DNA of 64,000 nucleotides from Prosthecobacter vanneervenii (GTDB lineage: Bacteria > Verrucomicrobiota > Verrucomicrobiia > Verrucomicrobiales > Verrucomicrobiaceae). Under the pieces are notes generated by a model. That model saw only the letters and a program-made list of their open reading frames with translations. It ran no database searches and had not been told where the DNA came from. The position numbers were made by a program, and so were the translations under genes. Below, one piece after another: positions 27,781-48,133 of the stretch. How positions within the stretch are numbered: position 1 is the stretch's first letter; every line of letters starts with the position of its first letter. The stretch covers positions 248,001 through 312,000 of the forward strand of contig NZ_JACHIG010000007.1 of assembly GCF_014203095.1 (NCBI RefSeq). Reading direction: 5' to 3'.

Positions 27781-27820
27781 CCCAGCGCAGGTAGGGCTGG
27801 CTGTCCCCAGCCAGCCGCCG
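27781..27820. repeat. Intergenic hairpin repeat with TCCC loop
   Basis: GGCTGGCTG (27795-27803) pairs perfectly with CAGCCAGCC (27808-27816) around the loop TCCC. The flanks CCCAGCGCAGGTAGG and CGCCG recur at 34767-34806 around a different stem. It starts 23 bases after the giant gene's stop and could act as a transcript end or stabiliser, although no T-run follows. Confidence 0.75.
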
Positions 27821-27884
27821 TCGGAGCCCATAAATTTCTCGCCACGAGAGTCCGCTAAAACGGAAATGAGTTTGGCGAATGGCT

Positions 27885-28056
27885 ATAGACCTGTTCTCGA
27901 AAAGAATGTCCGATTGAACCGGCGAGCGCAGCGGCCCCAGTGGCAAGGCGGGAGCGACGCCTGCTATTTGAAAATAACAGGCAAGCGACCAACGCAGCCA
28001 ATGGGGCCGCACCGCCGCCCGGGCAATGTGACAGGCTTTTCGAGAACTGGTCTAAA
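27885..28056. repeat. ~172-bp imperfect palindrome, MITE-like element
   Basis: The outer arms are AGACCTGTTCTCGAAAAG (left) and the reverse complement of AGACCAGTTCTCGAAAAG (right), one mismatch in 18. Inside, complementarity continues at roughly 70%, including GCGGCCCCAGTGG against GCGGCCCCATTGG, and ends at a tip hairpin (CCTGCTATTT / AAATAACAGG). TAT and ATA flank the ends. There is no ORF. The structure fits a non-autonomous, transposon-derived miniature element or a long folded RNA; no related transposase is in the window. Confidence 0.65.
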
Positions 28057-28157
28057 TAGGGTGGGCATGCAAGCACTGGCTGCCTGATTTGCCTTGAAAT
28101 CTCCACCTCAACACAAAGTCTTTTCTTCAGAACCGAGTTTTCACTGGCTTCGAAATC

Positions 28158-28210
28158 GACCCGTTTTCAATGGAGTGTGGTATTATACCACAACCCATTG
28201 AAAACAGGTC
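28158..28210. repeat. 53-bp near-perfect palindrome
   Basis: The 26-bp arms (28158-28183 and 28185-28210) are complementary with three mismatches around a single central base; the core is GTGGTAT-T-ATACCAC. The ends, GACCCGTTTTCA and the complement of GACCTGTTTTCA, resemble the tips of the larger palindrome at 27885-28056 (GACCNGTTYTCRA). It adjoins the dispersed repeat that starts at 28214. Confidence 0.75.
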
Positions 28211-28213
28211 TGT

Positions 28214-28399
28214 TCTCTTTTCGTCACTCAGCCCCGCTTTACGCCAACCCCAAAGGGGTTGCGTAATTGAGCCCAGGGTCAGCCGAGCCTCAGCGAGGCG
28301 ACCCTGGGTCTGCAAGCCACCGGCTGGGAAGCAAACCCAAGACTTTCTACATCACACCGCGTTCACCAGCAGCGTCTGCCTTGCGCTCCGCCGCACATC
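28214..28399. repeat. Dispersed structured repeat, copy A
   Basis: This ~186-bp segment matches 46084-46268 along its length. It contains CCCC-AAA-GGGG, then a compound hairpin with CCCAGGGTC (28272-28280) pairing to GACCCTGGG (28300-28308) and an inner GCCT/AGGC stem, then a conserved GGGAAGCAAACCCA block and CAGCAGCGTCTGC near the 3' end. It has no coding potential. Confidence 0.75.
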
Positions 28400-28475
28400 G
28401 GCCCCCGCTTTCAGAACGCGCTTCAATACGACTCCGCCCCCCAAGTCTTCCGCAGCAAACTCTCCCTCTGAGACA

Positions 28476-28503
28476 GACCCGTTTTCAACAGATGGTGGTA
28501 TAA
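28476..28503. repeat. Solo arm of the 53-bp palindrome
   Basis: GACCCGTTTTCAA followed by GTGGTATAAT repeats the left arm found at 28158-28184 (GACCCGTTTTCAA...GTGGTATTAT) in the same orientation, without its inverted partner. Confidence 0.5.
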
Positions 28504-28815
28504 TCCAAGCACGCACACAGCCATCCTTGCCATCCAAGATAAGCGCCTGCCGCACGGCCGGTAGGGAACCGCTGTGCGGGTCCGAAGATTCGGGTCTGTG
28601 GCTGCGCAGGCGCTCAAATAGGTGCGCCGTCATTGGAGCGTGGAAAAGCCTGAGCCCTTGAGGCATTGAGCGCCATGACGAGTTAGAGCGGTGCCATGTC
28701 CCCATCCCATGAAGCAACCTCTGTCCGACAGCCACCTGCCTGGAGACTTCTTCACAGCTGCGGCGGATATGAGGCGCGCGGTCACCCCGTCTGGACTTCG
28801 CGCTTTTTTCTCACC

Positions 28816-29877
28816 TCACCGCCCCACTTCCAGCAGCGTCGGCAGCTTGTGCAGCGGCGTAATCTCATTCGCACCAGCCGCACTCGCCGCCGGTTTCACC
28901 GCCTTCGGATCACTCGACTTCAAAAAGCGGAACAGCTCGCTCTCCGTCGTGAAGACCATCGTCGTGTCCGCCGTGATCAGCGTCTTGTACGTCTCCATCG
29001 TTTTCAGAAACTCAAACAGCTGCGCCGCTTCCGGCGTCTGGTTGTACGCCTTCGCGTAGATCTCCGTTGCCTTCGCATCTGCCGCACCTTCCAGCTCCTG
29101 CACCTTCCGGTACGCTTCAGACTCGATCGTCGCCAGATCACGCTCCCGCTCACCATTGATCTTTGCCGCCTCACCCTCGCCTTCCGCTCGGTGCAGCTTT
29201 GCGATCTGCTCACGTTCGGAAATCATGCGCTGATGAATCGACTGGCTCACCGAAGGATCGTAGTCGATCCGTTTGAACCTCACATCCAGCAGCTTGATCC
29301 CATAGCCCTCGATCTTCGGGATCGCATTCTTGAGCACTTCCGCCTCCAGCTCCACCCGGCCATGCGAGATCGGCGGCAGCACCCCGATCCGCAGGTCCGC
29401 CGTGGACGGCACCGTCCCGCTGCCGCTGCTCGTGTTCGACACATCACGCACCGCCTTGCGGTCCTTCGTCGTCCGCACTGCCTCAATGAAATCATGCTTC
29501 GCAATCACGATGCGCGTCTCGCTCGCCAGGATGTCATCCAGTCGCGAGAGCGCACGTCGCTCATCCGTCAGCTGGCGGAAAAACACCAGCGGATCACTGA
29601 TCTCCCACCGGCCAAACACATCCACCACCACGATCACCTTGTCCTTCGTCGTCATGTTGGCCGAGGGGCCGTCCCACTCCAGCACCCGCTTGTCCAGCCG
29701 GTTCACCGTCTGGATAAAAGGCGTCTTCCAGTGCAGCCCGGCTTTCTTCACCGGTTCGCCCACCGGCATGCCAAACTGCGTGATCACCACCTGCTCCGTC
29801 TCGCTCACGGTGTACAAGCCCGAGCCCAGCACAATCGTCAGCGACAGGACAACAATCAGTAAAAGAGAGGCTTTCAT
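28816..29877 (-). CDS. hflC: HflC, SPFH/band-7 membrane protein
   Basis: The 353-residue product begins with a single N-terminal membrane anchor (about residues 4-22), followed by an SPFH/prohibitin-type domain (TEQVVITQFGMPVG, GLHWKTPFIQTV, LEWDGPSANMTTKDK) and a long charged helix rich in Glu, Lys and Arg. Length and order fit HflC. In other bacteria HflC assembles with HflK into a membrane cage around the FtsH protease and modulates proteolysis of membrane proteins. Its ATG overlaps the hflK stop as ATGA, so the two are translationally coupled in the order hflK-hflC. No ftsH gene lies in the window. Confidence 0.92.
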   Translation of the reverse strand: MKASLLLIVVLSLTIVLGSGLYTVSETEQVVITQFGMPVGEPVKKAGLHWKTPFIQTVNRLDKRVLEWDGPSANMTTKDKVIVVVDVFGRWEISDPLVFFRQLTDERRALSRLDDILASETRIVIAKHDFIEAVRTTKDRKAVRDVSNTSSGSGTVPSTADLRIGVLPPISHGRVELEAEVLKNAIPKIEGYGIKLLDVRFKRIDYDPSVSQSIHQRMISEREQIAKLHRAEGEGEAAKINGERERDLATIESEAYRKVQELEGAADAKATEIYAKAYNQTPEAAQLFEFLKTMETYKTLITADTTMVFTTESELFRFLKSSDPKAVKPAASAAGANEITPLHKLPTLLEVGR

Positions 29878-30863
29878 CGTGTGGCAGGGGCAGGGGTGGT
29901 TTGGCGCAGATTCATCAGCGGCAGGAAGGACGAGGCCTTGTCATCCAGGATCACCTTGCCCGGCACCTGGGACAGCACATCGCTCATCGTCTCCAGATAC
30001 AGGCGCTTCTTCGTCACCTCCGGTGCTTTCAGGTATTCCGTCAGCACCGCCTGGAATCGCGCTGCATCACCCTCCGCCTCATTCACGCGCTTGGCCGCAT
30101 AGCCCTCAGCACCCTTGATCTTCTGCTCCGCTTCACCGCGCGCCTTCGGAATGATCTGGTTGTAGTTCCCGCTCGCCGTGTTGATCGCAGACTCCTTCTC
30201 CTGCTTCGCGCGGTTCACATCGCTGAAGCTCGCCTGCACATCCGCAGGCGGGTTGATGTTGCCCAGCTGGATCTGATCAATGTGCACACCCATGCTCAGC
30301 GCTGCCACCAGCTCCCGCAGCCGCTCGGCACACTTCGCCTCCATCTCCTGCCTGCCAATAGTGAGCACCTCATCCACCGTGCGGTCGCCCACCACCTCGC
30401 GCATCACCGCCTGGGAGAGATCCCGCAGCGTCGGCAGCGGCTCGCGGAAGTTGAACACATACGCCACCGGATCGCTGATATGGTATTGCACCACCCACTC
30501 CACCAGCGCTGTGTTCAGGTCCCCCGTCACCATCGTCTTCTCACCCTCCTGCTCGCGGTAGTCCGCATACTGGTAGGGGTTCGTCGCACCGCGGGTGGCA
30601 AAGCCAAACTCCAGCTTCTGCTGCCGCAAAATCTCCACCAGCGTCACGCTGTCGATCCCCCACGGCAGCTTGAAGTGCAGCCCCGGATTCTCCGTCTTCA
30701 GATACCCGCCAAAACGCTGCACCACCGCCACCGACTCCGCCGGCACTTGATACACGCCCGAGAAAACACCGACCGCCACAAACAGTCCGATCAGCGCCGT
30801 GAGGATCAGGCGCGGATTAAAGCTGATCTGTGGCGCATTGGGAAAAGGTCGTACCTCGCTCAT
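29874..30863 (-). CDS. hflK: HflK, SPFH/band-7 membrane protein
   Basis: The 329-residue product has one transmembrane segment at about residues 18-38 and then a band-7 domain with PAESVAVVQRFGGYL, NPGLHFKLPWGID and the HflK-typical region around EKTMVTGDLNTALVEWVVQY. The C-terminal half is an Ala/Glu/Lys-rich coiled helix (RGEAEQKIKGAEGYAAKRVN). It is the HflC partner and first gene of the two-gene unit. The long Gly/Pro-rich N-terminal extension of enterobacterial HflK is missing, as is common outside proteobacteria. The start is 38 bases from the 3' end of denD. Confidence 0.92.
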   Translation of the reverse strand: MSEVRPFPNAPQISFNPRLILTALIGLFVAVGVFSGVYQVPAESVAVVQRFGGYLKTENPGLHFKLPWGIDSVTLVEILRQQKLEFGFATRGATNPYQYADYREQEGEKTMVTGDLNTALVEWVVQYHISDPVAYVFNFREPLPTLRDLSQAVMREVVGDRTVDEVLTIGRQEMEAKCAERLRELVAALSMGVHIDQIQLGNINPPADVQASFSDVNRAKQEKESAINTASGNYNQIIPKARGEAEQKIKGAEGYAAKRVNEAEGDAARFQAVLTEYLKAPEVTKKRLYLETMSDVLSQVPGKVILDDKASSFLPLMNLRQTTPAPATR

Positions 30864-30901
30864 GTCACGAGGCTAGACCATTCCCCCCTCGCGGCAAAGC
30901 C

Positions 30902-31870
30902 CTACTTCATTCCAAAATCCGACACATATTGTTCCACGATCTCCTTCAGCGTCGGCGGCTTCGGCAGCCCGATGGCTTCCGCACGCGAGCCATCCACCTG
31001 CTGCGGCCAGTTGTCCACGATCCCCTGAATCCGCGCATCAAACGCATCCACGATCGGCCCCAGCTTGATGCCTTTCTCCTCTGCCACTTCCTGGATCACC
31101 TTTTCCGCGATGTTCGGCGTCACACGGTGCGCCGGCAGCACATACGCGCGGTCCTTGCCCAGCTTCTCCTCAGGCACCTCGCTCAGGAAGATGAAGGACT
31201 CAATCACCGTCCGGTACCCCGTCATCGGGTGCGGCTGGTCGCGGCGGATCGGCAGCATGCACGGCTCGCCATTCAGCGGCTCACGAAACATCCCGCTCGC
31301 CCAGCTCGACGCCGCCGCATTCGGCTTGCCCGGCCGCACGATCACTGTCGGCAGCCGCACACTGCGCCCGTCAAAGTGGCCTTTGCGTGTGTGATCGTTC
31401 ACCATCATCTCGCACATCGCCTTCGTCATTCCATACGTCGTCTGCGGCAGCTGCTTCGTCAGGTCAGACATCATCTGAGACATGTCCAGCCCGCCATACA
31501 CCGCCACACTGCTCGCGAAAACAACACGCGGTCTTCCCTCCGCCGCACGCGCCGCCTCAAACACATTACGCCCGCCCTCCAGGTTCACCCGCATCGCGTC
31601 ATCAAAGCGCTCCTCGCACTCCCCGCTCACCATCGACGCCAGGTGAAAAATCACGTCAAACTTCGCCCCCGTCGCCGCCAGCACCGTCGCACGGTCGCCG
31701 ATGTCACCTGTGATGTGCTTCACCCGCGCATCCGTCGGCTCGCTGCGGAAAAACGCATCCAGCAGCACCATCTCCGTGATCGCCTTCCCGCACCACGTAC
31801 CGCGTTCCAGGAGTTTCTGTGCCAGCTGTGATCCAAGGAAGCCGCCGCCGCCGGTGATGATGATTTTCAT
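30902..31870 (-). CDS. denD: NAD-dependent epimerase/dehydrogenase, D-erythronate dehydrogenase (DenD) type
   Basis: The start at 31870 (MKIIITGGGGFLG) puts the Rossmann motif at the extreme N-terminus as in extended SDRs; an upstream in-frame ATG would add 43 non-homologous residues and overlap the divergent gene. The 322-residue product shows GGGGFLG for NAD binding, FASSVAVYGG with the catalytic Ser, and YGMTK with the Tyr-Lys pair. The run TVIVRPGKPNAAASSWASG followed by MFREPLNGE is characteristic of the DenD group, which oxidises D-erythronate at C2. It diverges from a beta-hydroxyacid dehydrogenase, a family whose LtnD members act on L-threonate in tetronate pathways; no tetronate kinase is nearby, so the pathway is inference. 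Confidence 0.8.
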   Translation of the reverse strand: MKIIITGGGGFLGSQLAQKLLERGTWCGKAITEMVLLDAFFRSEPTDARVKHITGDIGDRATVLAATGAKFDVIFHLASMVSGECEERFDDAMRVNLEGGRNVFEAARAAEGRPRVVFASSVAVYGGLDMSQMMSDLTKQLPQTTYGMTKAMCEMMVNDHTRKGHFDGRSVRLPTVIVRPGKPNAAASSWASGMFREPLNGEPCMLPIRRDQPHPMTGYRTVIESFIFLSEVPEEKLGKDRAYVLPAHRVTPNIAEKVIQEVAEEKGIKLGPIVDAFDARIQGIVDNWPQQVDGSRAEAIGLPKPPTLKEIVEQYVSDFGMK

Positions 31871-31894
31871 GAGTTGGGTTGGGAAGGAGTTTGC

Positions 31895-31913
31895 CATCAG
31901 GTCCAGCCTGATG
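31895..31913. repeat. Hairpin in the divergent promoter region (loop TCCAG)
   Basis: CATCAGG and CCTGATG form a 7-bp stem around TCCAG in the 59-base gap between the divergent denD and beta-hydroxyacid dehydrogenase genes. It could be an operator for both, or a member of the TCC-loop hairpin set found between other genes here. Confidence 0.55.
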
Positions 31914-31929
31914 TGAGTTCGCCACCGAC

Positions 31930-32802
31930 ATGAGCAAGCCACTCTCAGGATACAAGATCGGATTCGTCGGACTCGGCAATATGGGCCGCGCCAATGCACG
32001 CCACCTCCATGAAGCCGGAGCCGACGTCGTCGTCTGGAACCGCAGCGCCGCCCCCGCCGAGGCCGCCGTCGCCCTCGGCATGCGCCGCGCCGCCTCCCTC
32101 CCAGAGCTCGCCCGCGAGATCGGCCCCGGCATCATCTGCATCAATCTCACCATGACCGACGTCGTCGAAGCCGTCGTCTTCGGCCCCGGCGGCCTCATCG
32201 AAGGCCTGCACCCAGACGCCCTCATTATCGACTTCGGCACCACCGGCGTCCCCGAGACCAAAAAATTCGGCGAACGCGTCCATTGGGTCGACTCCCCCGT
32301 CTCCGGCGGCCAGGTCGGCGCAGAGGCAGGCACCCTCACCATCATGGCCGGCGGCAGCTCGGAAAACTTCCAGCGCGCCCTCCCCATCTTCCAGGCCGTC
32401 GGCAAAAACATCACCCACCTCGGCCCCGTCGGCAGTGGTCAGGTCACCAAGCTCGCCAATCAGCTCATCGTTGCTCAGACCATCGACGCCGTCGCCCAGG
32501 CCCTCCGCCTCGCCGAACTCTCCGGCGTCGATCCCGCCCTCGTTAGGAAGGCCCTTCTCGGCGGCTTCGCCGAAAGCCGTATCCTCGACCTCCACGGCGA
32601 CCGCATGGTCCGCCGCGACTTCGCCCCTGGCGGCCGCGCCACCCTCCAGCTCAAAGACGTCCGCCTCATGTCCCAGCTCGCCGACTCCGTCGGCCTCGAC
32701 TCTCCCACCCTCAAAAACTCCCTCGCCCAGTGGGAAAAATTCGTCCACGAAAAACACCTCGGCGACCTCGACCACTCCGGCCTCTTCAGGTTGTATGAGT
32801 GA
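31930..32802 (+). CDS. NAD(P)-dependent beta-hydroxyacid dehydrogenase (HIBADH family)
   Basis: The 290-residue product has the HIBADH-family layout: N-terminal Rossmann fold with GFVGLGNMG, the substrate-binding DSPVSGG motif in mid-protein, and the catalytic-lysine segment GSGQVTKLANQL at about residues 163-174, followed by an all-helical domain. Related enzymes include 3-hydroxyisobutyrate dehydrogenase, tartronate semialdehyde reductase and L-threonate dehydrogenase; the sequence alone does not settle the substrate. Divergence from denD would favour a sugar-acid substrate. The stop overlaps the start of the next gene (ATG at 32795), suggesting coupling. Confidence 0.88.
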   Translation: MSKPLSGYKIGFVGLGNMGRANARHLHEAGADVVVWNRSAAPAEAAVALGMRRAASLPELAREIGPGIICINLTMTDVVEAVVFGPGGLIEGLHPDALIIDFGTTGVPETKKFGERVHWVDSPVSGGQVGAEAGTLTIMAGGSSENFQRALPIFQAVGKNITHLGPVGSGQVTKLANQLIVAQTIDAVAQALRLAELSGVDPALVRKALLGGFAESRILDLHGDRMVRRDFAPGGRATLQLKDVRLMSQLADSVGLDSPTLKNSLAQWEKFVHEKHLGDLDHSGLFRLYE

Positions 32803-33628
32803 GCCAGGCAAAGAGGATCGTTCAATCACAGTCCTCCTCGGCCCACGCGCTACGGATGACTCCGTCGCCATCTGGCGCGTCTGCGTTGCCAATCAATGGC
32901 CTGTCCACCGCATCCAGGCCTGGCGCGTTCCCGAAGAACTGCGCTCCTGTCCAAACAGCATCATCATCTACGGAGAGCCCCTTTTCGCAGAGGCCGTCGC
33001 CGATCAAATGGACCTCGCCCTCCTGGAACCTTCCATCGACTGGCTCACCACCGTTCCTCAGAAATACCTCTCCCGTCAGATCGAGTTCATGACTCTCGGC
33101 AGCGCGCGCCTCTTGGACTCACCGGCCTTTGTCAAACCCGCCGACGGCAAGATCTTCGAGCCTCGCGTCTATGCTTCTGGCAGCGACCTCCCCTCCGAAG
33201 AGCAGGTAGATCAAGACATCCCCGTCCTCCGTTCCGGCATCATGGACTTCCGGCTCGAAGTCCGCTGCTTCGTTCTGGGACGTCGCATCATGACCATGAG
33301 CCCCTACTGGAGGGAAGGGGAGCTCGCCCGATCCGCAGACGACCAATGGCCGTTCTTCCTCCGGGAAGAAACCGAGGCCCGCACCTTCGCAGAAAGCATC
33401 CTGTCAGACGCAGATGTTCCATTTCCTCCAGCATGCACCCTCGACATTGGTAAAACAACCGACGGCATCTGGGCCATCATCGAATCAAACCCCTGCTGGG
33501 GCGCCGGCCTCTACGGCTGCGATCCTTCCCAGGTCCTGCGCACCATTCGCTCATCCATTGTGCCCACATCAGAAGTCACCGCGGCACATCGACCTTGGAT
33601 CTCAAAACGCAGAAGTGCATCAGCGTAA
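32795..33628 (+). CDS. R2K-clade ATP-grasp domain protein (DUF4343-like)
   Basis: I chose the ATG at 32795 because the ORF upstream of it lies in a shadow frame of the preceding dehydrogenase. The 277-residue protein resembles the R2K ATP-grasp clade (DUF4343-like): FVKPADGKIFEPRVY carries the nucleotide-binding Lys, EVRCFVLGRRI the middle strand, and CTLDIGK...AIIESNPCWGAGLYG the metal-binding Asp and the terminal E-x-N. ATP-grasp enzymes ligate a carboxylate to an amine or thiol through an acyl phosphate; R2K members are thought to modify peptides or proteins, but no substrate is known. It overlaps the upstream dehydrogenase by eight bases, which implies co-expression. Confidence 0.75.
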   Translation: MSEPGKEDRSITVLLGPRATDDSVAIWRVCVANQWPVHRIQAWRVPEELRSCPNSIIIYGEPLFAEAVADQMDLALLEPSIDWLTTVPQKYLSRQIEFMTLGSARLLDSPAFVKPADGKIFEPRVYASGSDLPSEEQVDQDIPVLRSGIMDFRLEVRCFVLGRRIMTMSPYWREGELARSADDQWPFFLREETEARTFAESILSDADVPFPPACTLDIGKTTDGIWAIIESNPCWGAGLYGCDPSQVLRTIRSSIVPTSEVTAAHRPWISKRRSASA

Positions 33629-33950
33629 AGCCCCCCGGTCCACATCGCGGGCCAACGGCCCGCAGGACTCAGCCCAGGGCGCGGCGCAGCAAGCCCTGGG
33701 TTCGCACAGTCCCTGTGCGGCGCTTCGCTATCACCCTGCACTCCGCGCCCTCCTTCCAATTTAAAATTCCCAGTTTTCAGTTCTCAGTTTTCAATCTCCC
33801 CACGCCCACCAGCTTCAGCTCCACTAAAAACCACCCACAAAACGAGATCACCTCATCCGTGCTGGCAGTGTAATCCGTGGTTAAAAAACTCTGCCCCCTC
33901 TGCCCCTCTGCGGCTAAATCGAACGTCCCTTCGATCTACCTTCGCCCCCC
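33629..33950. other. Repeat-filled intergenic stretch
   Basis: There is no gene in these 322 bases. GCGGGCC-AAC-GGCCCGC (33647-33663), CCCAGGGC/GCCCTGGG (33672-33700) and CGCACAG-TCC-CTGTGCG (33703-33719) form consecutive hairpins. Downstream are low-complexity echoes (CCCAGTTTTCAGTTCTCAG; GTAATCCGTGG) and CTCTGCCCCCTCTGCCCCTC, resembling text-like intergenic repeats seen in Verrucomicrobiota. Confidence 0.6.
33671..33719. repeat. Double hairpin: CCCAGGGC stem plus CGCACAG/TCC hairpin
   Basis: AGCCCAGGGC pairs with GCCCTGGGTT across 12 bases. This is a shortened relative of the compound hairpin of the dispersed repeat at 28270 and 46140. The adjacent CGCACAG-TCC-CTGTGCG hairpin is shared with 45364-45383 and 48114-48133. 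Confidence 0.65.
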
Positions 33951-34706
33951 TCACGCATGCATCACCTGCCCCCCATCAATATTGATGGTCTGCCCGGTGA
34001 TGTTCTTCGCATGATCTGACGCCAGAAACGTCGCCATCGCCGCATACTCCTCCGGCATCTGCCAGCGGCCCAGGTGAGACACCTTCTTGATCTTCTCCGC
34101 CGCCCACTCATCAAAGCTCTGCCGCTTCTCCTCCGGCAGCTTCTTCTGCCCCGCCGCCCAGATGCTTTGGTTCAGCTCCGTCTTCACCATCCCCGGCGCC
34201 AGCGCATTCACCCGCACGTTGTGCGGCCCCAGATCCTTCGCCGCGCATTGAGTAAAATTAATCAGCCCCGCCTTCGACGCGCTGTACGGCGGATCCGTCT
34301 GCGACCCCATCTGCCCCGCCACCGACACCAGAAACAGCATCGATCCCCCACCTCGCTCGATCAGCCTCGGCGCAAACGCATGCGCCACATTCACCGCCCC
34401 GATCAGGTTCACCTCCAGCACCCGCGCCCAGTCACCCGGCTCCAGATTCCAAAACGGAAACCCAAACTTCCCCGAGCCAATCCCAACGCAAAACACCACG
34501 TGGTCCACCGCCTCAAACTCCCCCGCAAACGCCTTCACCGCGTCATAGCTCGCCACATCCCCCGCAGTCACAAACTCCGCCGTCTTCTCCCGGTCAAAGC
34601 CACGCACCACGCACCCCTCCGCCACAAACCCCTCCGCAATCGCCCGGCCAATGCCACGCGCCGCTCCAAACACCGCCACCGACTGTCCCGCTAGATTCAA
34701 ATTCAT
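33951..34706 (-). CDS. Classical short-chain dehydrogenase/reductase (SDR)
   Basis: The 251-residue product matches the classical SDR length. The cofactor motif is GAARGIGRA near residues 14-22; the active site has the Ser in FLVSVAG and the YSASKAG Tyr-Lys pair. NVRVNALAPGMVKT and GQTINIDGGQVMHA are typical C-terminal SDR segments. It reduces or oxidises a small alcohol/ketone with NAD(P); the substrate cannot be told from sequence. It stands alone between repeat-rich gaps, transcribed towards the R2K gene. Confidence 0.88.
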   Translation of the reverse strand: MNLNLAGQSVAVFGAARGIGRAIAEGFVAEGCVVRGFDREKTAEFVTAGDVASYDAVKAFAGEFEAVDHVVFCVGIGSGKFGFPFWNLEPGDWARVLEVNLIGAVNVAHAFAPRLIERGGGSMLFLVSVAGQMGSQTDPPYSASKAGLINFTQCAAKDLGPHNVRVNALAPGMVKTELNQSIWAAGQKKLPEEKRQSFDEWAAEKIKKVSHLGRWQMPEEYAAMATFLASDHAKNITGQTINIDGGQVMHA

Positions 34707-34766
34707 CCCTCAATTATGAAGCGCCCGCTTCGCTTATGCAAAGCACACCTCACAGGCACGCGCACT

Positions 34767-34806
34767 CCCAGCGCAGGGTAGGGGGCTGGTCCTCCAGCCT
34801 CCGCCG
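34767..34806. repeat. Intergenic hairpin repeat with TCCT loop
   Basis: GGCTGG (34784-34789) pairs with CCAGCC (34794-34799) around TCCT. The outer sequence CCCAGCGCAGG-GTAGGG ... CCGCCG matches the repeat at 27781-27820, whose stem is longer and partly different. Confidence 0.7.
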
Positions 34807-34864
34807 AGCGTCTCGACGCAAACACTACCGCAAATCAGTTGGCGAAAACGATACAGCCACCTCA

Positions 34865-34899
34865 CAAAAAAGCCCCCTGCGGTCTGCAGGAGGCTCTTT
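34865..34899 (-). terminator. Intrinsic terminator of the small lipoprotein gene
   Basis: Read on the reverse strand, AGCCTCCTGC and GCAGGGGGCT form a stem with one mismatch around a five-base loop, followed directly by TTTTTT. It begins about 40 bases after the stop codon of the lipoprotein gene at 34942. Confidence 0.85.
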
Positions 34900-40107: not shown

Positions 40108-40110
40108 TTT

Positions 40111-40948: not shown

Positions 40949-42334
40949 ATGAAATTTTGTTTCCTGCTCGTCATCAGCATCATCATCGTTCGCACGCTGA
41001 CTTCCTGCTCCAAGTCACCGTCCGCCGATCCCAAAGACCAGCACGTCATCCTCATCAGTCTCGACGGCTTCCCCGCCTGGCTTTGGAACGATGAATCCCT
41101 GCAGATCCCCAATCTCCGCAGGCTAGCCGCCGAAGGTGCCAGCACCAAGGCCATGACCGTCAGCAATCCCTCCATCACCTGGATCAATCACACCACTCTC
41201 GTCACCGGTGTCGAGCCCCGCAAACACGGCGTCCTCTTCAATGGCCTCCTCGTCCGCCAGGGCGACAACAAGCCGCCCAAGATCGAGCAGTGGGCAGACA
41301 AAACCAGGCTCGTTCATGCCCCCACTCTCTATGATGTCGCCCACGATGCCGGACTCACCACCGCCGAGTCAGACTGGGTCGCCGTCACCAAGGCCAAGAC
41401 CATTGACTGGAGCTTCGCCGAGCTCCCCGAGCTCGAAGGCAAAGTCGAAAAAGAAATGATCGCCGCCGGCGAGATCAAGCCTGAGCACATCACCTGGATG
41501 CAGCTCGGCCCCCAGCGCAAAAGCGTCACCTTCCTCGACAACATGTGGACCAAGGCCGCCATCCACATCTTCAAAACCCACAAGCCCAATCTCCTCCTCT
41601 ACCACACCCTGAATACCGACTCCACCCACCACACCTACGGCCCCGGCTCCTCCGCCAGTTACACCGCCCTCGCCTACGCCGACCGCCTTGTGGGAGATCT
41701 CGTCAAAGCCGTCGAAGACAGCGGCCTGCGCGACAGCACCACCTTCATCATCGCCACCGATCACGGCTTCAAAAAAGTTTCGAAAATCATCCTCCCCAAT
41801 GTCGAGCTCAAGAAAGCCGGGCTCGCCCAGGGCCTCGGCCCCACCATTACCACCTGCGATGCCTACTCCATGACCCAGGGCGGCATGGCCTTCGTCTATG
41901 TCACCAATCCCGCCCGCAAGGCCGAGCTCCTGCCCAAGCTCAAAGAAATGTTCGCCAAAGTCGAAGGCGTTGATCGCGTCATCGACGGCACAGACGGCCA
42001 CACCCTCGGCATGCCCACCCCCGAGGAAAACCAGGGCATGGGAGACCTCGTCCTCTACCCCAAAGCCGGCTATGCCTTCAAAAACGACGCTGGCGGAGAC
42101 GCCACCGTCACCCCTTCCGTCAACTACGCCGGCACCCACGGCTACCCCAACACCGACCCCGAGCTCGACGGCATCTTCATCGCCAGCGGCCGCGGCATCA
42201 AAAAAGGCATCGTCCTCGACCGCATGGCCAATCTCGACGTCGCCCCCACCATCGCCAAACTCATGGGCCTCCAGCTCCCCAATCCCGACGGCCGCGTCCT
42301 CGAAGAGATCCTCATCTCCGCCGACAAGAAATAG
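40949..42334 (+). CDS. Lipoprotein, type I phosphodiesterase / nucleotide pyrophosphatase family
   Basis: The start at 40949 gives a lipoprotein signal peptide ending in LTSC (Cys20); the product has 461 residues. Alkaline-phosphatase-superfamily motifs are clear: ILISLDGFPAWLW with the first metal-binding Asp, NPSITWINHTTLVTG with the nucleophilic Thr and NHxT, TDSTHHTYGPGS, and FIIATDHGFKK with the DHG metal site; GTHGYPNTDPELDGIFIASG closes the domain. Family members cleave phosphodiester or pyrophosphate bonds of nucleotides or lipids outside the membrane. It diverges from the GDPD gene. Confidence 0.9.
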   Translation: MKFCFLLVISIIIVRTLTSCSKSPSADPKDQHVILISLDGFPAWLWNDESLQIPNLRRLAAEGASTKAMTVSNPSITWINHTTLVTGVEPRKHGVLFNGLLVRQGDNKPPKIEQWADKTRLVHAPTLYDVAHDAGLTTAESDWVAVTKAKTIDWSFAELPELEGKVEKEMIAAGEIKPEHITWMQLGPQRKSVTFLDNMWTKAAIHIFKTHKPNLLLYHTLNTDSTHHTYGPGSSASYTALAYADRLVGDLVKAVEDSGLRDSTTFIIATDHGFKKVSKIILPNVELKKAGLAQGLGPTITTCDAYSMTQGGMAFVYVTNPARKAELLPKLKEMFAKVEGVDRVIDGTDGHTLGMPTPEENQGMGDLVLYPKAGYAFKNDAGGDATVTPSVNYAGTHGYPNTDPELDGIFIASGRGIKKGIVLDRMANLDVAPTIAKLMGLQLPNPDGRVLEEILISADKK

Positions 42335-42371
42335 CCTATAGATTCCGCAGCGCGCGACAGCGTCCTGGAGT

Positions 42372-42389
42372 GCGCCGGTCCTCCGGCGC
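42372..42389. repeat. Hairpin GCGCCGG, loop TCCT
   Basis: GCGCCGG (42372-42378) and CCGGCGC (42383-42389) form a perfect stem around TCCT in the gap after the phosphodiesterase gene. It belongs to the set of TCC-loop hairpins. Confidence 0.75.
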
Positions 42390-42457
42390 TTTCGCATGTC
42401 CCTGCCACTCTCCCACGCGCCACAGCCGCCTTACGCCACTTGCTCTTTACTGGGAGC

Positions 42458-42475
42458 GCCGATGTCCACATCGGC
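42458..42475. repeat. Hairpin GCCGATG, loop TCCA
   Basis: GCCGATG (42458-42464) and CATCGGC (42469-42475) form a perfect stem around TCCA; GGAGC and TCC extend it imperfectly. The stem is unrelated in sequence to the neighbouring hairpin at 42372 although the downstream tails match. Confidence 0.75.
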
Positions 42476-42753
42476 TCCGGCCGCACGTCCCTGCCGCTCC
42501 CCCACGCCCCCACGCCCCACCGCGTCCTCATCGCCATTTCCAATTCAAGGCCCCGTAAAATGAATCTACCCCCAATCATTTTACCATTCTCGCCCGCTTT
42601 CGGCAGCACCACTCCACCAGGTGCATTTTAGATACATCGTTGTGCGCGTCCTTGCCACACACCCTGACAGATTCCCCCCTCGCGCTTTGTAAACCTCAGC
42701 GCCCCCATTCCCCCATGCCTTCCCCCTGTCTCTGCAGAGCCCAGGCTCGTCCC

Positions 42754-45273
42754 ATGCGTCTTCCGCGCATGCTTGCCGTCCTCATGCTCTCCTCCATCCT
42801 CGCGCACGCCCAAACCGCTCCCACGCAGATCGAGCAGCGCTGCATCGAATGCCACGACAAGGACACCACCAAAGGCGGCCTCGATCTCACCGCTCTCCCC
42901 TTTGATCTCAAAGACTCCTCCACCCGCGACCGCTGGATCCGCATCCACGACCGCGTCGAAAAAGGCGAGATGCCCCCCAAAGCCGAAGACCTCCCACAGT
43001 CCGAGCGCACTGCCCTCGTCCAATCGCTCGCCACCTCCATCACCACCGTCGATCACGCAGACATCCTCGCCCACGGTCGCGGCCCGCTCCGCCGACTCAA
43101 TCGTGATGAGTACGAGCAGAACCTCCGCGACATCCTCCAGCTCCCCGACCTCGATATCCGTGACATCCTCCCCGAAGACCGCGAAGGCCACCGCTTCAAC
43201 AAGACTACCGACATGCTCGACATGTCCCGCGTCCAGCTCGTCGCCTACCTCGACGCCGCAGAGGCTGCGCTGCACGCCGCCATGACCACCGAGCCAGCGC
43301 CACCGCCCATGATCAAATACCGCGCCGTCGGCACAGATCTCTTCCCCGGCACTGGCACCTTCGGCAACCGCGAGGCCATGTTCTTCGCCCGCGACAACAA
43401 GGCCATGGAGTTCAGAGGCAAAAAAGACAAAGACAAAGGCAAAAACGAGCCCACCGAAAAGGACCTCGCTAAAGACGACACCATCGAGATGGCCCTCTTC
43501 CGCTCTGCAAGCTGGCCCTACCTCGGCACTCCCAAACACTTCACCGCCAAACGCACCGGCAACTACAAAGTCCGCTTCTCCGCCCGCGCCGTCCTTCAGC
43601 AGCCCGGCTTCGTCATCACCCCGGCCACGCAGCCCCTGCCCATGACCTTCCGCACCCGCAAACCTGCGGGCGTGGACATCATCAATGAAGTCCACGACTC
43701 CGGCGGCATCATCGACATCCAGCCCGAAAAGCGCGTTTACGAAACCACCGTCCGTCTGCGCGCAGGCGAAGCCATCGAGTACAGCCTCCTTGGCCTCCCC
43801 ATGCCGCTGGCCATGAACCCCAACGGCTCCGCTCCCTCCTACCGCTACCCACCGTTCCCAGAGGGCGGCCAGCCCGGCCTCGCCGTGCAGTGGCTGGAAA
43901 TCGAAGGCCCCATCGAATCCCAAACCTGGCCGCCAGCCTCACATCATGTCCTCTTTGACGACCTCGGCATCCAGCCCAAACCCCAAGATCCACAGCAAGA
44001 AGCCAAACGCCTCCTCCGCCGCTTCGTCACACTCGCCTCCCGCGAGCCCGTCCCCGAAGAAGATTTGAAACTCTTCGACTCCCTCATCCAGGCCCAGCTC
44101 GCCAAAAACGTGCCCTTCGCCGAGGCCATGCTCGCAGGCTACAAAGCCTTCCTCGCCTCCGGAGATTTCATCTACGTGCGCGAGCCCATCAAGGCGGACG
44201 ACCACTTCGCCATCGCCTCCCGCCTCTCTCACTTCCTCACCAACTCACGTCCTGACGCCCAGCTCATGGACCTCGCGCAAAACAAAAAGCTGCGCGATCC
44301 CCAGGTCCTCCGCTCCGAAACCGAACGCCTCATCGCCAGCCCCGGCTTTGACCGCTTCGTCAAAAACTTCACCGACTGCTGGCTCAATCTCCGCCACATC
44401 CGCCGCGACGATCCCGACATCCGCCTCTTCCCTGAATACCGCTTCGACGAATACCTCGTCGAAAGCATGGAGCGCGAGACCCGCACCTTCTTCACCGCCA
44501 TGATCCGCGACAACCTGCCCGCCAGCGTGCTGGTGCAGTCAGATTTCGTCTTCGCCAATGACCGTCTCTCCACCCACTACCAGCTTCCACCACTCACGGG
44601 TTCCGCCATGCGCAAGGTCTCCTTGCCCAAAGACAGCCCCCTCGGCGGCCTCCTCACTCAGGCCGCCGTTTTGAAAGTCAGCGCCAACGGCACCACCACC
44701 TCGCCCGTCGTCCGTGGCGCCTGGGTCATGGAGCGCCTCATCGGCCAGCCACCTCCACCACCACCCGCCAGCGTCCCCGCCGTCGAGCCCGACATTCGCG
44801 GAGCCAAAACCATCCGCGATCTCCTCGCCCTTCACACCAAATCCAAAACCTGCGCCGGATGCCACGCCCGTTTCGATCCCGTCGGCCTCGCCCTTGAAAA
44901 CTTCGACATCCTCGGTGGCTGGCGCACCCACTATCGCGGCCTCGAAGAAGGAGAACGCATCACCGGCATCGACCGCGCTGGCCACACCTTCAGTTACACC
45001 ATCGCCTCCCCCGTGGACACCAATGGAAAGCTCCTCGACGGCCGTACCTTCAAGAACATCAACGACCTCAAAACCCTCCTCGCCGCCAATCCCCGCCAGC
45101 TCGCCCGCAATCTCCTCCACCAGTTCACCCTCTACGCCACCGGCACCCCCGTCCGCTTCTCCGACCGCCCCCAAATCGAATCCCTCCTCAACTCCTGCGC
45201 CAAAAACAACTACCCCATCCGCGACCTCCTCCACGCCCTCATCCAAAGCCCCATCTTCCTTGGCAGTCTTTGA
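42754..45273 (+). CDS. Secreted PSCyt1/DUF1587-DUF1595-DUF1592-DUF1588-DUF1585 protein
   Basis: With the start at 42754 the product has 839 residues and a signal peptide ending near AHAQ; an ATG at 42769 is equally possible. A c-type haem motif CIECH is at about residues 30-34. Then follow DUF1587 (RRLNRDEYEQNLRDIL), DUF1595 (LRRFVTLASREPVPEEDL), DUF1592 (ASRLSHFLTNSRPDAQL), DUF1588 with a second CAGCH near 700 (CHARFDPVGLALENFD), and DUF1585 at the C-terminus. This architecture is typical of Planctomycetota/Verrucomicrobiota, where it is almost always paired with a DUF1552 protein, as here downstream. The function is unknown; it is thought to work outside the cytoplasm, possibly in oxidative breakdown of complex polymers. 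Confidence 0.92.
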   Translation: MRLPRMLAVLMLSSILAHAQTAPTQIEQRCIECHDKDTTKGGLDLTALPFDLKDSSTRDRWIRIHDRVEKGEMPPKAEDLPQSERTALVQSLATSITTVDHADILAHGRGPLRRLNRDEYEQNLRDILQLPDLDIRDILPEDREGHRFNKTTDMLDMSRVQLVAYLDAAEAALHAAMTTEPAPPPMIKYRAVGTDLFPGTGTFGNREAMFFARDNKAMEFRGKKDKDKGKNEPTEKDLAKDDTIEMALFRSASWPYLGTPKHFTAKRTGNYKVRFSARAVLQQPGFVITPATQPLPMTFRTRKPAGVDIINEVHDSGGIIDIQPEKRVYETTVRLRAGEAIEYSLLGLPMPLAMNPNGSAPSYRYPPFPEGGQPGLAVQWLEIEGPIESQTWPPASHHVLFDDLGIQPKPQDPQQEAKRLLRRFVTLASREPVPEEDLKLFDSLIQAQLAKNVPFAEAMLAGYKAFLASGDFIYVREPIKADDHFAIASRLSHFLTNSRPDAQLMDLAQNKKLRDPQVLRSETERLIASPGFDRFVKNFTDCWLNLRHIRRDDPDIRLFPEYRFDEYLVESMERETRTFFTAMIRDNLPASVLVQSDFVFANDRLSTHYQLPPLTGSAMRKVSLPKDSPLGGLLTQAAVLKVSANGTTTSPVVRGAWVMERLIGQPPPPPPASVPAVEPDIRGAKTIRDLLALHTKSKTCAGCHARFDPVGLALENFDILGGWRTHYRGLEEGERITGIDRAGHTFSYTIASPVDTNGKLLDGRTFKNINDLKTLLAANPRQLARNLLHQFTLYATGTPVRFSDRPQIESLLNSCAKNNYPIRDLLHALIQSPIFLGSL

Positions 45274-45363
45274 AAAGATCCCGAGCATCCCCAAAAAGGA
45301 CCACCTTTTTCCACCCCGATGTCAAAAGCTCCAGGATTACCGCAAGTGCGCCAGCATAGTGGT

Positions 45364-45383
45364 CCGCACAGTCCCCTGTGCGG
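45364..45383. repeat. Hairpin CCGCACAG, loop TCCC
   Basis: CCGCACAG and CTGTGCGG form a perfect 8-bp stem around TCCC. The 17 bases in front, TGCGCCAGCATAGTGGT, are identical at 48097-48113, where the same stem has a TCCT loop. Confidence 0.8.
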
Positions 45384-45500
45384 CACTCCGCTATCTCCCT
45401 CCCGCTCCGCTTTTCACTGAAAGCACTCAATGTAACCACAGAGCCGGTTCTCCAACACGTTGCTGAAGCAAGAACACGAATCACTAAACCTCTGCGTCCT

Positions 45501-45890
45501 GTGAAAATCGAAGCTGAACGAGCACCCCCATTTTATCCAGACCATTATCCGCTGATTGCCTTCCAGCTTTCCTATGAAGAAATGGTGACCCGTTTTGGAC
45601 TCCCACACAGGGTGATGGACGAGAACGATAATGAACCTTGCCCATGCGAATACTGGTCATTCCTATTCCCATGCGGGCTCTCCATCTTTATCGCTTTTCA
45701 TTTGCAAGCACCCACAGGCCCCACCGGAAGCGTTTATGCCAGCAGCCGTGATATCGGCCACATCCTCGAACACCTGCCTGTAAACGACTGCGTTTTTTGG
45801 CGCCTCGACATAGCTGAACCAGATCTGTACCGTGAACGCGGCGGAATCCTCTCTTCTACCTGTCCGTGCGGGACCAAACAAAATGCTTAA
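45501..45890 (+). CDS. Hypothetical protein, 129 residues
   Basis: I place the start at the GTG at 45501 because sequence before it is repeat-like; an ATG at 45582 is the next option. No family was recognised. The product has no signal peptide. It includes YPDHYPLIAFQLSYEEMVTRFG, DENDNEPCPCEYWSFLFPCG and, near the end, DCVFWRLDIAEPDLYRERGG. Base composition is less GC-rich than in the flanking DUF1592 and DUF1552 genes, whose usual adjacency it interrupts. It could be an acquired small gene; function unknown. Confidence 0.5.
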   Translation: MKIEAERAPPFYPDHYPLIAFQLSYEEMVTRFGLPHRVMDENDNEPCPCEYWSFLFPCGLSIFIAFHLQAPTGPTGSVYASSRDIGHILEHLPVNDCVFWRLDIAEPDLYRERGGILSSTCPCGTKQNA

Positions 45891-46327
45891 CTCAAGTATG
45901 AACGGTTCACGCATCATCAAATCCTTCTTCCGTCGCCGCGCCTTGGGCCCGTTCGCTGCAATCCAAACGACACCTGTTTGGCAGATACTGTTCTTCGCAA
46001 CAGCGCCTCGCTGTACACCTGTCCCAAAAGAACTGCATGATCGCCTTCTCGCTGCGAATACCATCTCACCCGTCCAGCCCATCTCATTCTTCGCCACAGC
46101 GCCCCGCCCCACACCAGCCCCAAAGGGGCTGCGTAATTCAGCCCAGGGTCAGCCGAGCCTAAGCGAGGCGACCCTGGGTTATGCACCACCCGACCGGGAA
46201 GCAAACCCACCGCTCCGCCGCACCCAACGGATACCAGCAGCGTCTGCAAAGCGCCCCGCCGCACATCTGCGCGCACGTTAACCACCTGTCATCCGACTCC
46301 TTCCCCATCTCTCTTTCTGATCGTCCC
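45891..46327. other. Repeat-filled gap before the DUF1552 gene
   Basis: No gene is visible. The second half is copy B of the dispersed repeat. The part at about 45989-46042 is a decayed third copy: CTTCGCAACAGCGCC ... CCCAAAAGAACTGCATGAT aligns with CTTCGCCACAGCGCC ... CCCAAAGGGGCTGCGTAAT just downstream. Confidence 0.6.
46084..46268. repeat. Dispersed structured repeat, copy B
   Basis: It matches copy A at 28214-28399: CCCC-AAA-GGGG, TGCGTAATT, then CCCAGGGTC and GACCCTGGG as outer stem arms with GCCT/AGGC inside, GGGAAGCAAACCCA, CAGCAGCGTCTGC and GCCGCACATC. Both copies are in the same orientation with respect to the window. Confidence 0.75.
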
Positions 46328-47626
46328 ATGAACGCCCCCTACATCGCCAAACCCCTCTCCCGGCGCCGCTTCCTGCGAAGCGCAGGGGCGACTCTCACCC
46401 TGCCATTGCTCGAATACCTCCACCCCGTCTTCGGCCGCGCCGCTCAGGTCAAACCACCCCAGCGTCTCCTCATCATCTCAAACAACCTCGGCTTCCTCCC
46501 CAAACCCTTCTTCCCCAAAAGCACCGGACGCGACTATGAACTGTCACCAACGCTCGCTCCGCTCAGCGAGGTGAAAAACGAATTCACCCTCTTCAGCGGC
46601 CTCTCCCACCCCGACGTCAACGGCGGCCACAGCGCGGAGAACTGCTTCCTCACCGCCGCACGCGGCCCCACCAAGAGCGGCTTCCGCAATCAAATCTCCC
46701 TCGATCAATACATCGCCGAAAAACTCGGCCAGCAGACTCGCTATCCAACACTCAATCTCGGCGTCAACATCGACAAAGCCAACCGCAGCCTCTCCTGGAC
46801 TCGCGACGGCGTCCTCCTCCCCGCTGAAGACAGCGCCCCCGCCCTCTTCCGCCGCATGTTCGTTCAGGGCGATCCCGCCGCTGTCAAAAAACAACTCCAG
46901 CAGCTCGACGAACGCGGCAGCATTCTCGACACCCTTCTCGATCAAACCAAGCGCCTCAGCCGCGACCTCGGCAGCACCGACCGCGCACGCCTCGATCAAT
47001 ACCTCACCTCCGTCCGCGAAGTCGAAGAGCGCCTCCTCACCGCCCGCGAATGGGAGCTCAAGCCCAAGCCCGTCGCCACCCAGCCCGAGCCCGAAGACAT
47101 CCGCGACAAAAAACTCATCTTCGAAAAGCTCGACCTCATGCTCTCCATGGCACAGCTCGCCTTCGAGTCCGACTCCACCCGCATCGTCACCCTCATGGTC
47201 GATGCCTTCGCCACGCCCGCCTTCCATCTTCCCGGCGCTGACAACACCACAGAAGGCTACCACGGCCTCAGCCATCACGGCCAGGCCGAGGAAAAAGTAC
47301 GCCAGCTCGCCGAAGCCGACCTTGAGCAGATGCGCCTCTTCAAAAAGCTCATCCAAACCCTCGCCTCCAAAAAGGAAGACGACGCCCGCCTCCTCGACCG
47401 CACCATGGTCCTCTTCGGCAGCAACATGGGAGACGCCAACACCCACGACAACACCAACCTCCCCATCCTCCTCGCCGGCGGCGGCTTCAAACACGGCCAG
47501 CACCTCGCCTTCAAACGCGACACCAACCTCCCCCTCAGCAACCTCTTCCTCTCCCTCCTCCACCGCCTCGGCGTCGAGTCCAACCAATTCGGCTCCAGCA
47601 CCGGCACCATCTCAGGCCTGACCTGA
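46328..47626 (+). CDS. Secreted DUF1552 protein, Tat signal
   Basis: The start at 46328 gives 432 residues with a twin-arginine-like signal (LSRRRFLRSAGATLTLPLLE). The body matches DUF1552: RLLIISNNLGFLPKPFFPK, FSGLSHPDVNGGHSAENCFLT, SGFRNQISLDQYIAEKLG, TLMVDAFATPAFHLPG, YHGLSHHGQAEEK and MVLFGSNMGDANTHDNTNLPILLAGG. The family is distantly related to DUF1501 and to the alkaline-phosphatase-like fold. It is the standard partner of the DUF1592 protein upstream and is presumably exported folded with it. The two are 1.05 kb apart here, separated by repeats and an unknown ORF. Confidence 0.92.
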   Translation: MNAPYIAKPLSRRRFLRSAGATLTLPLLEYLHPVFGRAAQVKPPQRLLIISNNLGFLPKPFFPKSTGRDYELSPTLAPLSEVKNEFTLFSGLSHPDVNGGHSAENCFLTAARGPTKSGFRNQISLDQYIAEKLGQQTRYPTLNLGVNIDKANRSLSWTRDGVLLPAEDSAPALFRRMFVQGDPAAVKKQLQQLDERGSILDTLLDQTKRLSRDLGSTDRARLDQYLTSVREVEERLLTAREWELKPKPVATQPEPEDIRDKKLIFEKLDLMLSMAQLAFESDSTRIVTLMVDAFATPAFHLPGADNTTEGYHGLSHHGQAEEKVRQLAEADLEQMRLFKKLIQTLASKKEDDARLLDRTMVLFGSNMGDANTHDNTNLPILLAGGGFKHGQHLAFKRDTNLPLSNLFLSLLHRLGVESNQFGSSTGTISGLT

Positions 47627-47662
47627 CACAGCCATACCCCCCCAGGCCAGCGCATGGAAGTA

Positions 47663-47684
47663 CGACAGACACTCCTGTCTGTCG
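47663..47684. repeat. Hairpin CGACAGACA, loop CTCC
   Basis: CGACAGACA (47663-47671) and TGTCTGTCG (47676-47684) form a perfect 9-bp stem around CTCC, 36 bases after the DUF1552 stop. It is a possible transcript-end hairpin without a T-tract. Confidence 0.8.
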
Positions 47685-47764
47685 GTCAGCGCTCCCCAAT
47701 TCCCCAGCCCTTCAAACAATCTCCATCACACTCCACACAGCCTTCCGAGCTAGGACCAAAGTAG

Positions 47765-47785
47765 CCTTGTTCCTGTGGAACAAGG
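47765..47785. repeat. Hairpin CCTTGTTCC, loop TGT
   Basis: CCTTGTTCC and GGAACAAGG form a perfect 9-bp stem around TGT. Unlike most hairpins in this window its loop lacks TCC. Confidence 0.75.
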
Positions 47786-47915
47786 AACGCTCCGCATCAC
47801 CCTGAAATCTCAGTAATCTACAGCTCGTCGCCTCTGTAACACATGCAACTTACGTGCGTCCAAAAGAGCACCATGAAATACCACGAAGTACTCATGTTAT
47901 CACTATAAACAATGT

Positions 47916-47958
47916 CCGGCGGGCTGCCACAACCATGGCTGTGGGTGCCGGCCCGCGG
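47916..47958. repeat. Two-stage GC-rich hairpin
   Basis: An outer CGGGC/GCCCG pair (47920-47924 and 47951-47955) and an inner CCACA/TGTGG pair (47927-47931 and 47940-47944) enclose the loop ACCATGGC. The pairing is imperfect between the two stems. Confidence 0.45.
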
Positions 47959-48096
47959 TAACTTCATCAAGAGGAAACCGCGTAGCGGTGACATTAAAAC
48001 TTCAGATGCTACCTGTCTCGGCAGATCCCCCGAGGTCCAACGGAATAACAATCTGGCTATTCAAACCGCGTAGCACGTCCATGGGGGCGCCGCCCA

Positions 48097-48133
48097 TGCG
48101 CCAGCATAGTGGTCCGCACAGTCCTCTGTGCGG
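48097..48133. repeat. Hairpin CCGCACAG with TCCT loop and conserved 5' flank
   Basis: It is a second copy of the element at 45347-45383: the same flank TGCGCCAGCATAGTGGT and the same 8-bp stem, with loop TCCT instead of TCCC. The bases 3' of the stem differ. Confidence 0.8.

Follow-up and report, generated by a model that had tools for sequence, protein, structure and literature searches.

The window analysed here is a stretch of 64,000 nucleotides of the Prosthecobacter vanneervenii genome (positions 248001-312000 of contig C7 in the assembly G000, 6.66 Mb in 33 contigs), in which short hairpins with TCC in the loop recur between genes. A previous interpretation made from the letters alone (hereafter, the sequence-only reading) listed nine such hairpins, named here by their positions (27804, 31902, 33710, 34790, 42379, 42465, 45372, 47672 and 48122), along with two exceptions that have other loops, AAC at 33647 and TGT at 47765. 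All eleven are present, and the region between 48.4 and 64 kb is free of TCC hairpins, as had been noticed: among the 7-bp hairpins of the window with loops of 3-6 nucleotides, none beyond 48.2 kb has TCC or GGA in the loop. Eight of the nine are members, or very probably members, of several families of repetitive extragenic palindromes (REPs).

27791..27816, + strand: class A REP, head GTAG, 9-bp stem GGCTGGCTG, loop TCCC
33703..33719, + strand: class B REP, degenerate head, stem CGCACAG, loop TCC, abutting another repeat
34778..34801, + strand: class A REP, diverged stem GGGGCTGG with one G-T pair, loop TCCT
42367..42389, + strand: likely REP of a minor class, head GGAG, then T, stem GCGCCGG, loop TCCT
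42453..42475, + strand: class D REP, head GGAG, then C, stem GCCGATG, loop TCCA, assigned to the family of hairpins that flank the RAYT gene L004
45359..45383, + strand: class B REP, head GTGG, then T, stem CCGCACAG, loop TCCC
47657..47684, + strand: class E REP, head GAAG, then TA, stem CGACAGACA, loop CTCC
48109..48133, + strand: class B REP, head GTGG, then T, stem CCGCACAG, loop TCCT

Some of the stems, which had been described as being of at least six unrelated sequences, do belong together: 27804 and 34790 are both class A, and 33710, 45372 and 48122 are all class B. The class A copy at 27791..27816 shares more than 50 nt of nearly identical sequence with a copy on contig C1 (L252), itself one half of an inverted doublet. 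The flanks of 47657..47684 are those of the hairpin directly after the RAYT gene L005 (where the loop is CTCT), and the second copy of the minor class (L056:9486) has no GGAG head. The degenerate head of 33703..33719 is found in this copy only across the window and the 80 genome stretches described below.

We consider it highly probable (roughly 0.86) that the hairpins with a TCC loop in this verrucomicrobial genome are REP elements, that these fall into at least six classes and that some form inverted doublets (REPINs). The observed basis of this assignment is the enrichment of the loop, the head on the same strand, the paired changes in the stems, the RAYT genes flanked by the same elements, and presence or absence of elements in sister genomes. 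As such, they would be short, non-autonomous mobile repeats that are copied by Y1/HUH transposases specific for single-stranded DNA (RAYT, TnpA-REP). The element would fold on single-stranded DNA, and the RAYT would read a 5' tetranucleotide (the guide) and bases of the loop, requiring a paired stem and being nearly indifferent to its sequence. Because the enzyme would read the head and the loop and demand only pairing of the stem, these two parts would remain fixed while the stems drift through paired change and diverge into subfamilies. Reading of this kind by RAYTs is the most likely reason for the constant loop; that the RAYTs of this genome read TCC and that the elements move by single-strand cleavage, we infer from published work on other RAYTs.

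The preference for TCC extends far beyond the window. The loop was examined in 80 systematic 20-kb stretches of the genome outside the window (1.6 Mb, of which 223 kb are intergenic according to our own simple codon-usage gene finder), with hairpins defined by a stem of at least 7 bp and a loop of 3-5 nucleotides. TCC, on either strand, is in the loop of 61 of the 206 intergenic hairpins, compared with a mean of 2.74 and a maximum of 7 in 100 dinucleotide-preserving shuffles, so that the predicted genome-wide excess over shuffled sequence was borne out. Among the coding hairpins of the same stretches, 22 of 303 have this loop, and the runner-up among intergenic loops, TCT/AGA, occurs 24 times. 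The elements are short intergenic palindromes with many genomic copies, as REPs are: exact patterns of classes A, B and C have 44, 40 and 47 copies in this genome (none for the reversed-pattern control), and classes D, E, F and the minor class have 3, 6, 4 and 2 copies, respectively, in the 1.66 Mb made up of the window and the 80 stretches. A bias to one strand, which had also been raised, is seen in the window, where all nine hairpins are on the + strand, but not genome-wide, where the exact patterns split 22/22, 17/23 and 19/28 between the strands for classes A, B and C; this is expected for mobile elements.

Most of the TCC-loop hairpins in the window carry a guide-like tetranucleotide (GTAG, GTGG, GGAG or GAAG) 5' of a stem of 7-9 bp, and the classes differ in this head and in the stem.

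Class A: GGTAG, 9-bp stem, loop TCC[CT]; in the window, 27804 and 34790
Class B: GTGGT, stem CCGCACAG, loop TCC[CT]; in the window, 33710, 45372 and 48122
Class C: GGCGGA, stem GAGGGATCG, loop TCC; frequently close to an inverted GGGGATCA hairpin whose loop is TCT
Class D: GGGAGC, stem GCCGATG, loop TCC[AT]; in the window, 42465
Class E: GAAGTA or GAAGTGA, stems ending in CA, loop CTCC; in the window, 47672
Class F: GTAG, stem TGCGGGCA, loop ATCC

When a head is defined as GTAG, GTGG, GGAG or GGGG no more than 2 nt ahead of the stem, 31 of the 61 intergenic TCC hairpins of the 80 stretches have one on the TCC strand, one has it on the other strand only, and 29 have it on neither, whereas heads accompany 19 of the 145 non-TCC intergenic hairpins with either strand counted and, on the TCC strand, 3 of the 22 coding TCC hairpins. 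Counted independently of the loop, perfect hairpins directly after GGTAG have TCC in 10 of 12 cases, a sample in which the two non-TCC hairpins come from one place, four of the ten TCC hairpins from one array and one from the window itself. Classes A (GTAG), B (GTGG) and F (GTAG) have the GT(A/G)G head next to the palindrome. The close inverted pairs typical of REPINs are formed by class A copies, at a 50-bp offset in several genomes, and by class C beside the inverted GGGGATCA hairpin; the doublets are seen outside the window, and the window copies are single. Class A also forms tandem arrays, at L033:3410-3890 and at L251 (G000:C1:134600-135400), with periods of 83 and 183 bp.

How the stems vary was analysed for class A in a set of 44 copies (43 distinct) from this and sister genomes, which includes the window copy and leaves out L033:3408. 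The copies were picked by head and loop, with at most two unpaired positions allowed, and since they were selected in this way, the set is silent on conservation of the loop, for which the any-loop GGTAG count and the 80-stretch sample are the evidence. Of its 387 cells, 99.0% are paired (4 are broken). Cells changed on both sides number 72, compared with 23.8 after shuffling (0 of 500 shuffles as high), and the covariation is 0.491 compared with 0.127 (again 0 of 500), with slid controls giving 0.006-0.087. Both sides have changed at 6 of the 9 stem pairs (shuffled mean 4.3; 26 of 500 as high), with the loop and the 5' head steady, which supports the idea, put forward in the sequence-only reading, that a constant loop with a varying stem bespeaks selection on structure.

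The genome also encodes the candidate enzymes. A search with PF01797 pointed to 10 places, five of which hold RAYT-like proteins, 200-250 residues long, that can be aligned along their full length. All five pass the Pfam Y1_Tnp (PF01797) cut-off, their alignment has invariant NHVH and Y-I..NP motifs, that is, HxH and the conserved Tyr, and the best match of their joint profile is the solved TnpA-REP structure 4er8 (E 1.2e-6); among the matches listed, the closest named relative comes from a metagenome-assembled genome (MAG) of Verrucomicrobiaceae, with 80% identity. In this genome, L004 has class D hairpins on its flanks, with TCCT and also TTT and TTCT loops, L006 is flanked by class F and L005 by class E, with CTCC and CTCT loops; on the flanks of L008, there are GTAG hairpins with GCC loops. 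Class B lies on both sides of a RAYT in the sister genome G008 (L249) and forms an array beside one in G013 (L234). A RAYT flanked by the same element is thus seen for classes D, E and F in this genome and for class B in the sisters, but for neither A nor C in the 154 RAYT loci of the survey described below, in which GGAG-headed hairpins, too, flank RAYTs. The L234 array (G013:C166:69200-72300) has a 66-bp period. A second kind of Y1_Tnp gene, a 388-codon frame that is not of the short RAYT type, is found at L009 (G000:C1:926586-929759), with class D hairpins to one side of it and a similar element to the other.

Loops around RAYTs were surveyed across a wider range of bacteria, starting from the best 80 named loci of a longer list, 69 of the 114 matches in relatives and L001-L008. 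These 157 loci comprised 154 with a RAYT domain, 152 distinct, of which 94 have a headed hairpin and 74 a supported pair (38 named, 33 from relatives and 3 of this genome; 78 were dropped). TCC is the most common loop, first-place ties included, around 36 of the 74 RAYTs; the number becomes 41 if every tie counts and 31 if at least two TCC elements and a clear majority are required. Counting the TCC elements of all 74 RAYTs, there are 39 different 7-base stem ends, of which 32 occur around the 36 TCC-majority RAYTs; the heads of the TCC elements are GGAG in 58 cases, GTAG in 19, GTGG in 15 and GGGG in one. The 17 named loci with a clear TCC majority are assigned, by the titles of records that are nearly all MAGs, to Verrucomicrobia (with Phragmitibacter, Akkermansia and Opitutus), Acidobacteria (with Pyrinomonadaceae), Alpha- and Gammaproteobacteria, Chloroflexi and Hydrogenedentes. 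A more far-reaching proposal, which we put forward tentatively and consider possible rather than probable, is that TCC could be a recognition key shared by a broad set of RAYTs in several phyla. Enzymes reading head and loop, with pairing as their sole demand on the stem, would be able to mobilise REP families with unrelated stems, including the families of other RAYTs. On this view, classes A and C, orphan families that occur in several genomes of the genus and for which no RAYT of their own was found, would depend in trans on RAYTs that are not their cognates.

Several observations weigh against reading these hairpins as RAYT-borne REPs with TCC as the key. No class A or C hairpin lies beside a RAYT in the 154 RAYT loci scanned, nor did comparison by eye of the listed class A and C copies with the RAYT places reveal any adjacency. 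Around 38 of the 74 surveyed RAYTs, TCC is not the first-most-common loop, and the class D RAYT L004 itself has a TTT majority (3 TTT, 2 TCC and 1 TTC elements). By the NCBIfam RAYT cut-off (80 bits), only one of the five proteins passes (P0001, 88.8), the other four scoring 60.8-77.2. In the class A stems, the count of pairs changed on both sides is not beyond the shuffles (26 of 500 as high), and neither is the number of further pair types (10 compared with 8.9; 140 of 500 as high). The 29 headless hairpins among the 61 are accounted for in part by class C (GGCGGA) and class E (GAAG), and a few look like terminators or chance. Finally, the heads of most of class C (GGCG/GGAG), of class D (GGAG) and of class E (mostly GAAG) are outside the published GT(A/G)G rule. 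As a candidate cleavage dinucleotide before the head, CT lies within 4 nt of 50 of 111 GGAG heads on their 5' side, which is a trend only and not a feature of the GTAG or GTGG heads.

The alternative that fares best, although we regard it as unlikely, is that the loop is constant by descent only, with all families derived from one ancestor and the loop functionless. On a RAYT tree of a quick kind, without bootstraps, the TCC/other label changes 17 times, compared with a mean of 24.5 and a minimum of 20 in 200 shuffles, so the loops appear to be partly inherited; the head changes 11 times (shuffled mean 28.2), the loop trimer 30 (36.9) and the 4-base stem end 43 (56.5). The 39 different stem ends among the TCC elements run counter to descent alone, as does the reading of loop bases in related systems described in the text of PMC8266576.

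Comparison with sister genomes shows which elements come and go and bears on another idea of the sequence-only reading, namely, rewriting of the arms by templated copying, here taken to occur in place (hairpin-templated repair) with complementarity kept. The 45.37 kb element has the same stem and loop in G001, whereas G002 lacks a 210-bp segment that includes it (window bases 45261-45470) and has 8 bp instead. Of the three elements between 47.6 and 48.3 kb, G001 keeps the one at 47672, with a one-sided C/T difference, and lacks the two others, and G002 has none, including the class B copy at 48109..48133. The gap after 42334 aligns in none of G001, G002 and G012; similarity to G002 resumes at 42613, and G002 has a different hairpin there, with a GGAG head and a TCCA loop, that may be an independent insertion. 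Among seven orthologous elements compared between sisters, the stems are identical in two (45.37 kb and L329/L338), a one-sided C/T difference is found in two (47.67 kb and L310/L341), and decay without compensation in two (L319/L311 and the partner element of L315/L320); the single paired change is in L315/L320, a T-A pair in G001 and a C-G pair in G002 at one stem position, along with decay at the stem foot. Three of the seven regional alignments (L306/L055, L309/L044 and L317/L017), in which a counterpart element was absent or the case was too unclear to judge, do not enter this count. With one paired change in seven, rewriting receives little support from the sisters, small as the sample is, and we rate it as very unlikely. 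The scarcity of broken class A pairs (4 of 387 cells), though several of the pair switches need an unpaired intermediate, speaks for rewriting, and the L315/L320 change raises its chances slightly without lowering any other reading; that change can also go via a G-T pair, however, and selection of paired stems at copying yields the same pattern.

Less credible still is the possibility that the hairpins act in RNA, as terminators, processing sites or stabilisers of mRNA ends, and are conserved for that role rather than through mobility. The TCC hairpins do lean towards convergent gaps and avoid divergent ones: convergent gaps hold 29 of them (7.3 per 10 kb), tandem gaps 27 (2.4) and divergent gaps 4 (0.9). 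The tendency is weaker for the other hairpins (39, 70 and 23; 9.8, 6.1 and 5.4 per 10 kb). The REPs of E. coli are known to have side effects of this kind at the RNA level. Nevertheless, a T run (at least 5 T in the 8 bases after the 3' arm) follows 2 of 60 TCC hairpins, compared with 27 of 132 others with either side allowed, and a terminator scan of 31.7-48.5 kb returned none of the hairpins of the sequence-only reading located there (27804 is outside the scanned part), so that intrinsic terminators were rejected. A known RNA family was rejected as well, with no Rfam match at the gathering threshold in 27-49 kb. For only 16 of the 27 hairpins in tandem gaps does the TCC strand run along the genes, and a role in RNA would leave the flanking of RAYTs and the 5' head unexplained. 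Chance formation of such hairpins in GC-rich intergenic DNA, which does explain the TCC at 31902, can be dismissed for the group as a whole, given the 61 TCC hairpins against 2.74 in the shuffles.

The hairpin at 31902 and the two exceptions are features of other kinds.

31895..31913, no strand assigned: dyad CATCAGG-N5-CCTGATG between divergent genes, outside the family
33647..33700, no strand assigned: AAC exception, resembling, as judged by eye, the repeat beside the IS200-like gene L002 (an AAC-loop hairpin, then a CCCAGGG...CCCTGGG dyad)
47761..47785, + strand: TGT exception, head GTAG, stem CCTTGTTCC; the same stem, with a TGC loop, flanks the RAYT L211 in the sister G013

The 31902 dyad had been counted as a member of the TCC group but has no head, and in the sisters G001, G002 and G008 its arms are identical (CATCAGG..CCTGATG) and its loops differ (GCACG, GCACC and GCGCT); further relatives in the same alignment keep it partly or not at all. 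It was rejected as a TCC REP, the TCC there being due to chance. The dyad follows the opposite rule, with fixed arms and a variable loop, and looks operator-like, a divergent-promoter dyad that is a candidate operator. Both exceptions, 33647 and 47765, look like repeats that accompany other RAYT or IS200-like genes and have loops of their own. Elsewhere in the window, the stretches 28241-28379 and 46091-46209 both match one stretch of a sister genome (L325) and contain the hairpins CAACCCC-AAA-GGGGTTG (28252) and CAGCCCC-AAA-GGGGCTG (46122), followed by CGTAATT.AGCCCAGGGTCA; these repeats resemble those beside L002, a small gene. The longest open frame listed in the region by a wide margin, with 8479 codons, spans 2318-27757 on the + strand.

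The sequence-only reading knew of no named family with this rule, which was wrong as to the kind: these are REP elements, a kind known from published REP/RAYT work, and loop bases of REPs are read by group 3 TnpA-REP according to the text of PMC8266576. As reported there, the group 3 enzymes of S. maltophilia and Marinomonas require particular bases in the loop, the S. maltophilia REP showed an effect, though not a drastic one, when blocks of its central and upper stem were changed, a mid-stem mismatch affected or almost eliminated cleavage, GTAG is the guide to the cleavage site, and the E. coli enzyme does not read its loop. Loop reading combined with the need for a paired stem predicts the pattern of a constant loop and a free stem seen in the window. 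The group 3 REP/REPIN systems, as described in PMC8266576 and PMC3686654, are similar to ours in the 5' tetranucleotide, the perfect stem, the short loop with required bases, the mostly intergenic location, the inverted doublets, the several families per genome and the RAYTs flanked by cognate REPs. They differ in that the published loop keys are G13 in Sm and T13 in Mb, whereas the loop here is TCC, the heads include GGAG and GAAG, and the host is a verrucomicrobium. Di Nocera 2013 (PMC3733652) describes 24 GTAG families with alternative complementary stem bases and loops that are often TY, and Opitutus terrae, of the same phylum, as rich in them; its families, for example, GTAG-20 of O. terrae, share with ours the GTAG/GTGG head, the alternative complementary stem residues and short loops, many of which fit TY, but TCC appears nowhere in its main text, on which, rather than on the figured loops, this comparison is based. 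The ends of IS200/IS605 elements (IS608, ISDra2) are also handled by a Y1/HUH enzyme, and the transposase contacts T bases in the hairpin loop (as summarised in PMC8266576), but there a whole insertion sequence with guide-cleavage pairing is involved, unlike the scattered non-autonomous hairpins here. REPs are defined by GT(A/G)G in PMC2817692 and PMC3686654, which, as far as their text goes, also describe coevolution of RAYTs and REPs and orthologous RAYTs with different REPs, and the search rule of the survey in PMC6006769 is given as GTAG or GTGG.

Neither TCC as a shared loop nor GGAG-headed families were found in the literature searched. What is new is the breadth of the TCC loop, which REP families that differ in head and stem have in common, including two (A and C) beside which no RAYT was found. 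A puzzling sequence rule thereby becomes a recognition code that can be tested. Among bacterial repeats, REPs are common, and what RAYTs read in them has been worked out for the three model systems described in PMC8266576. The analysis documents REP-like families with GGAG heads, which are outside the GTAG/GTGG search rule stated in PMC6006769. With one loop kept over many REP families while the stems and even the heads change, the loop is the likely key, and these families are natural variants for testing cross-mobilisation.

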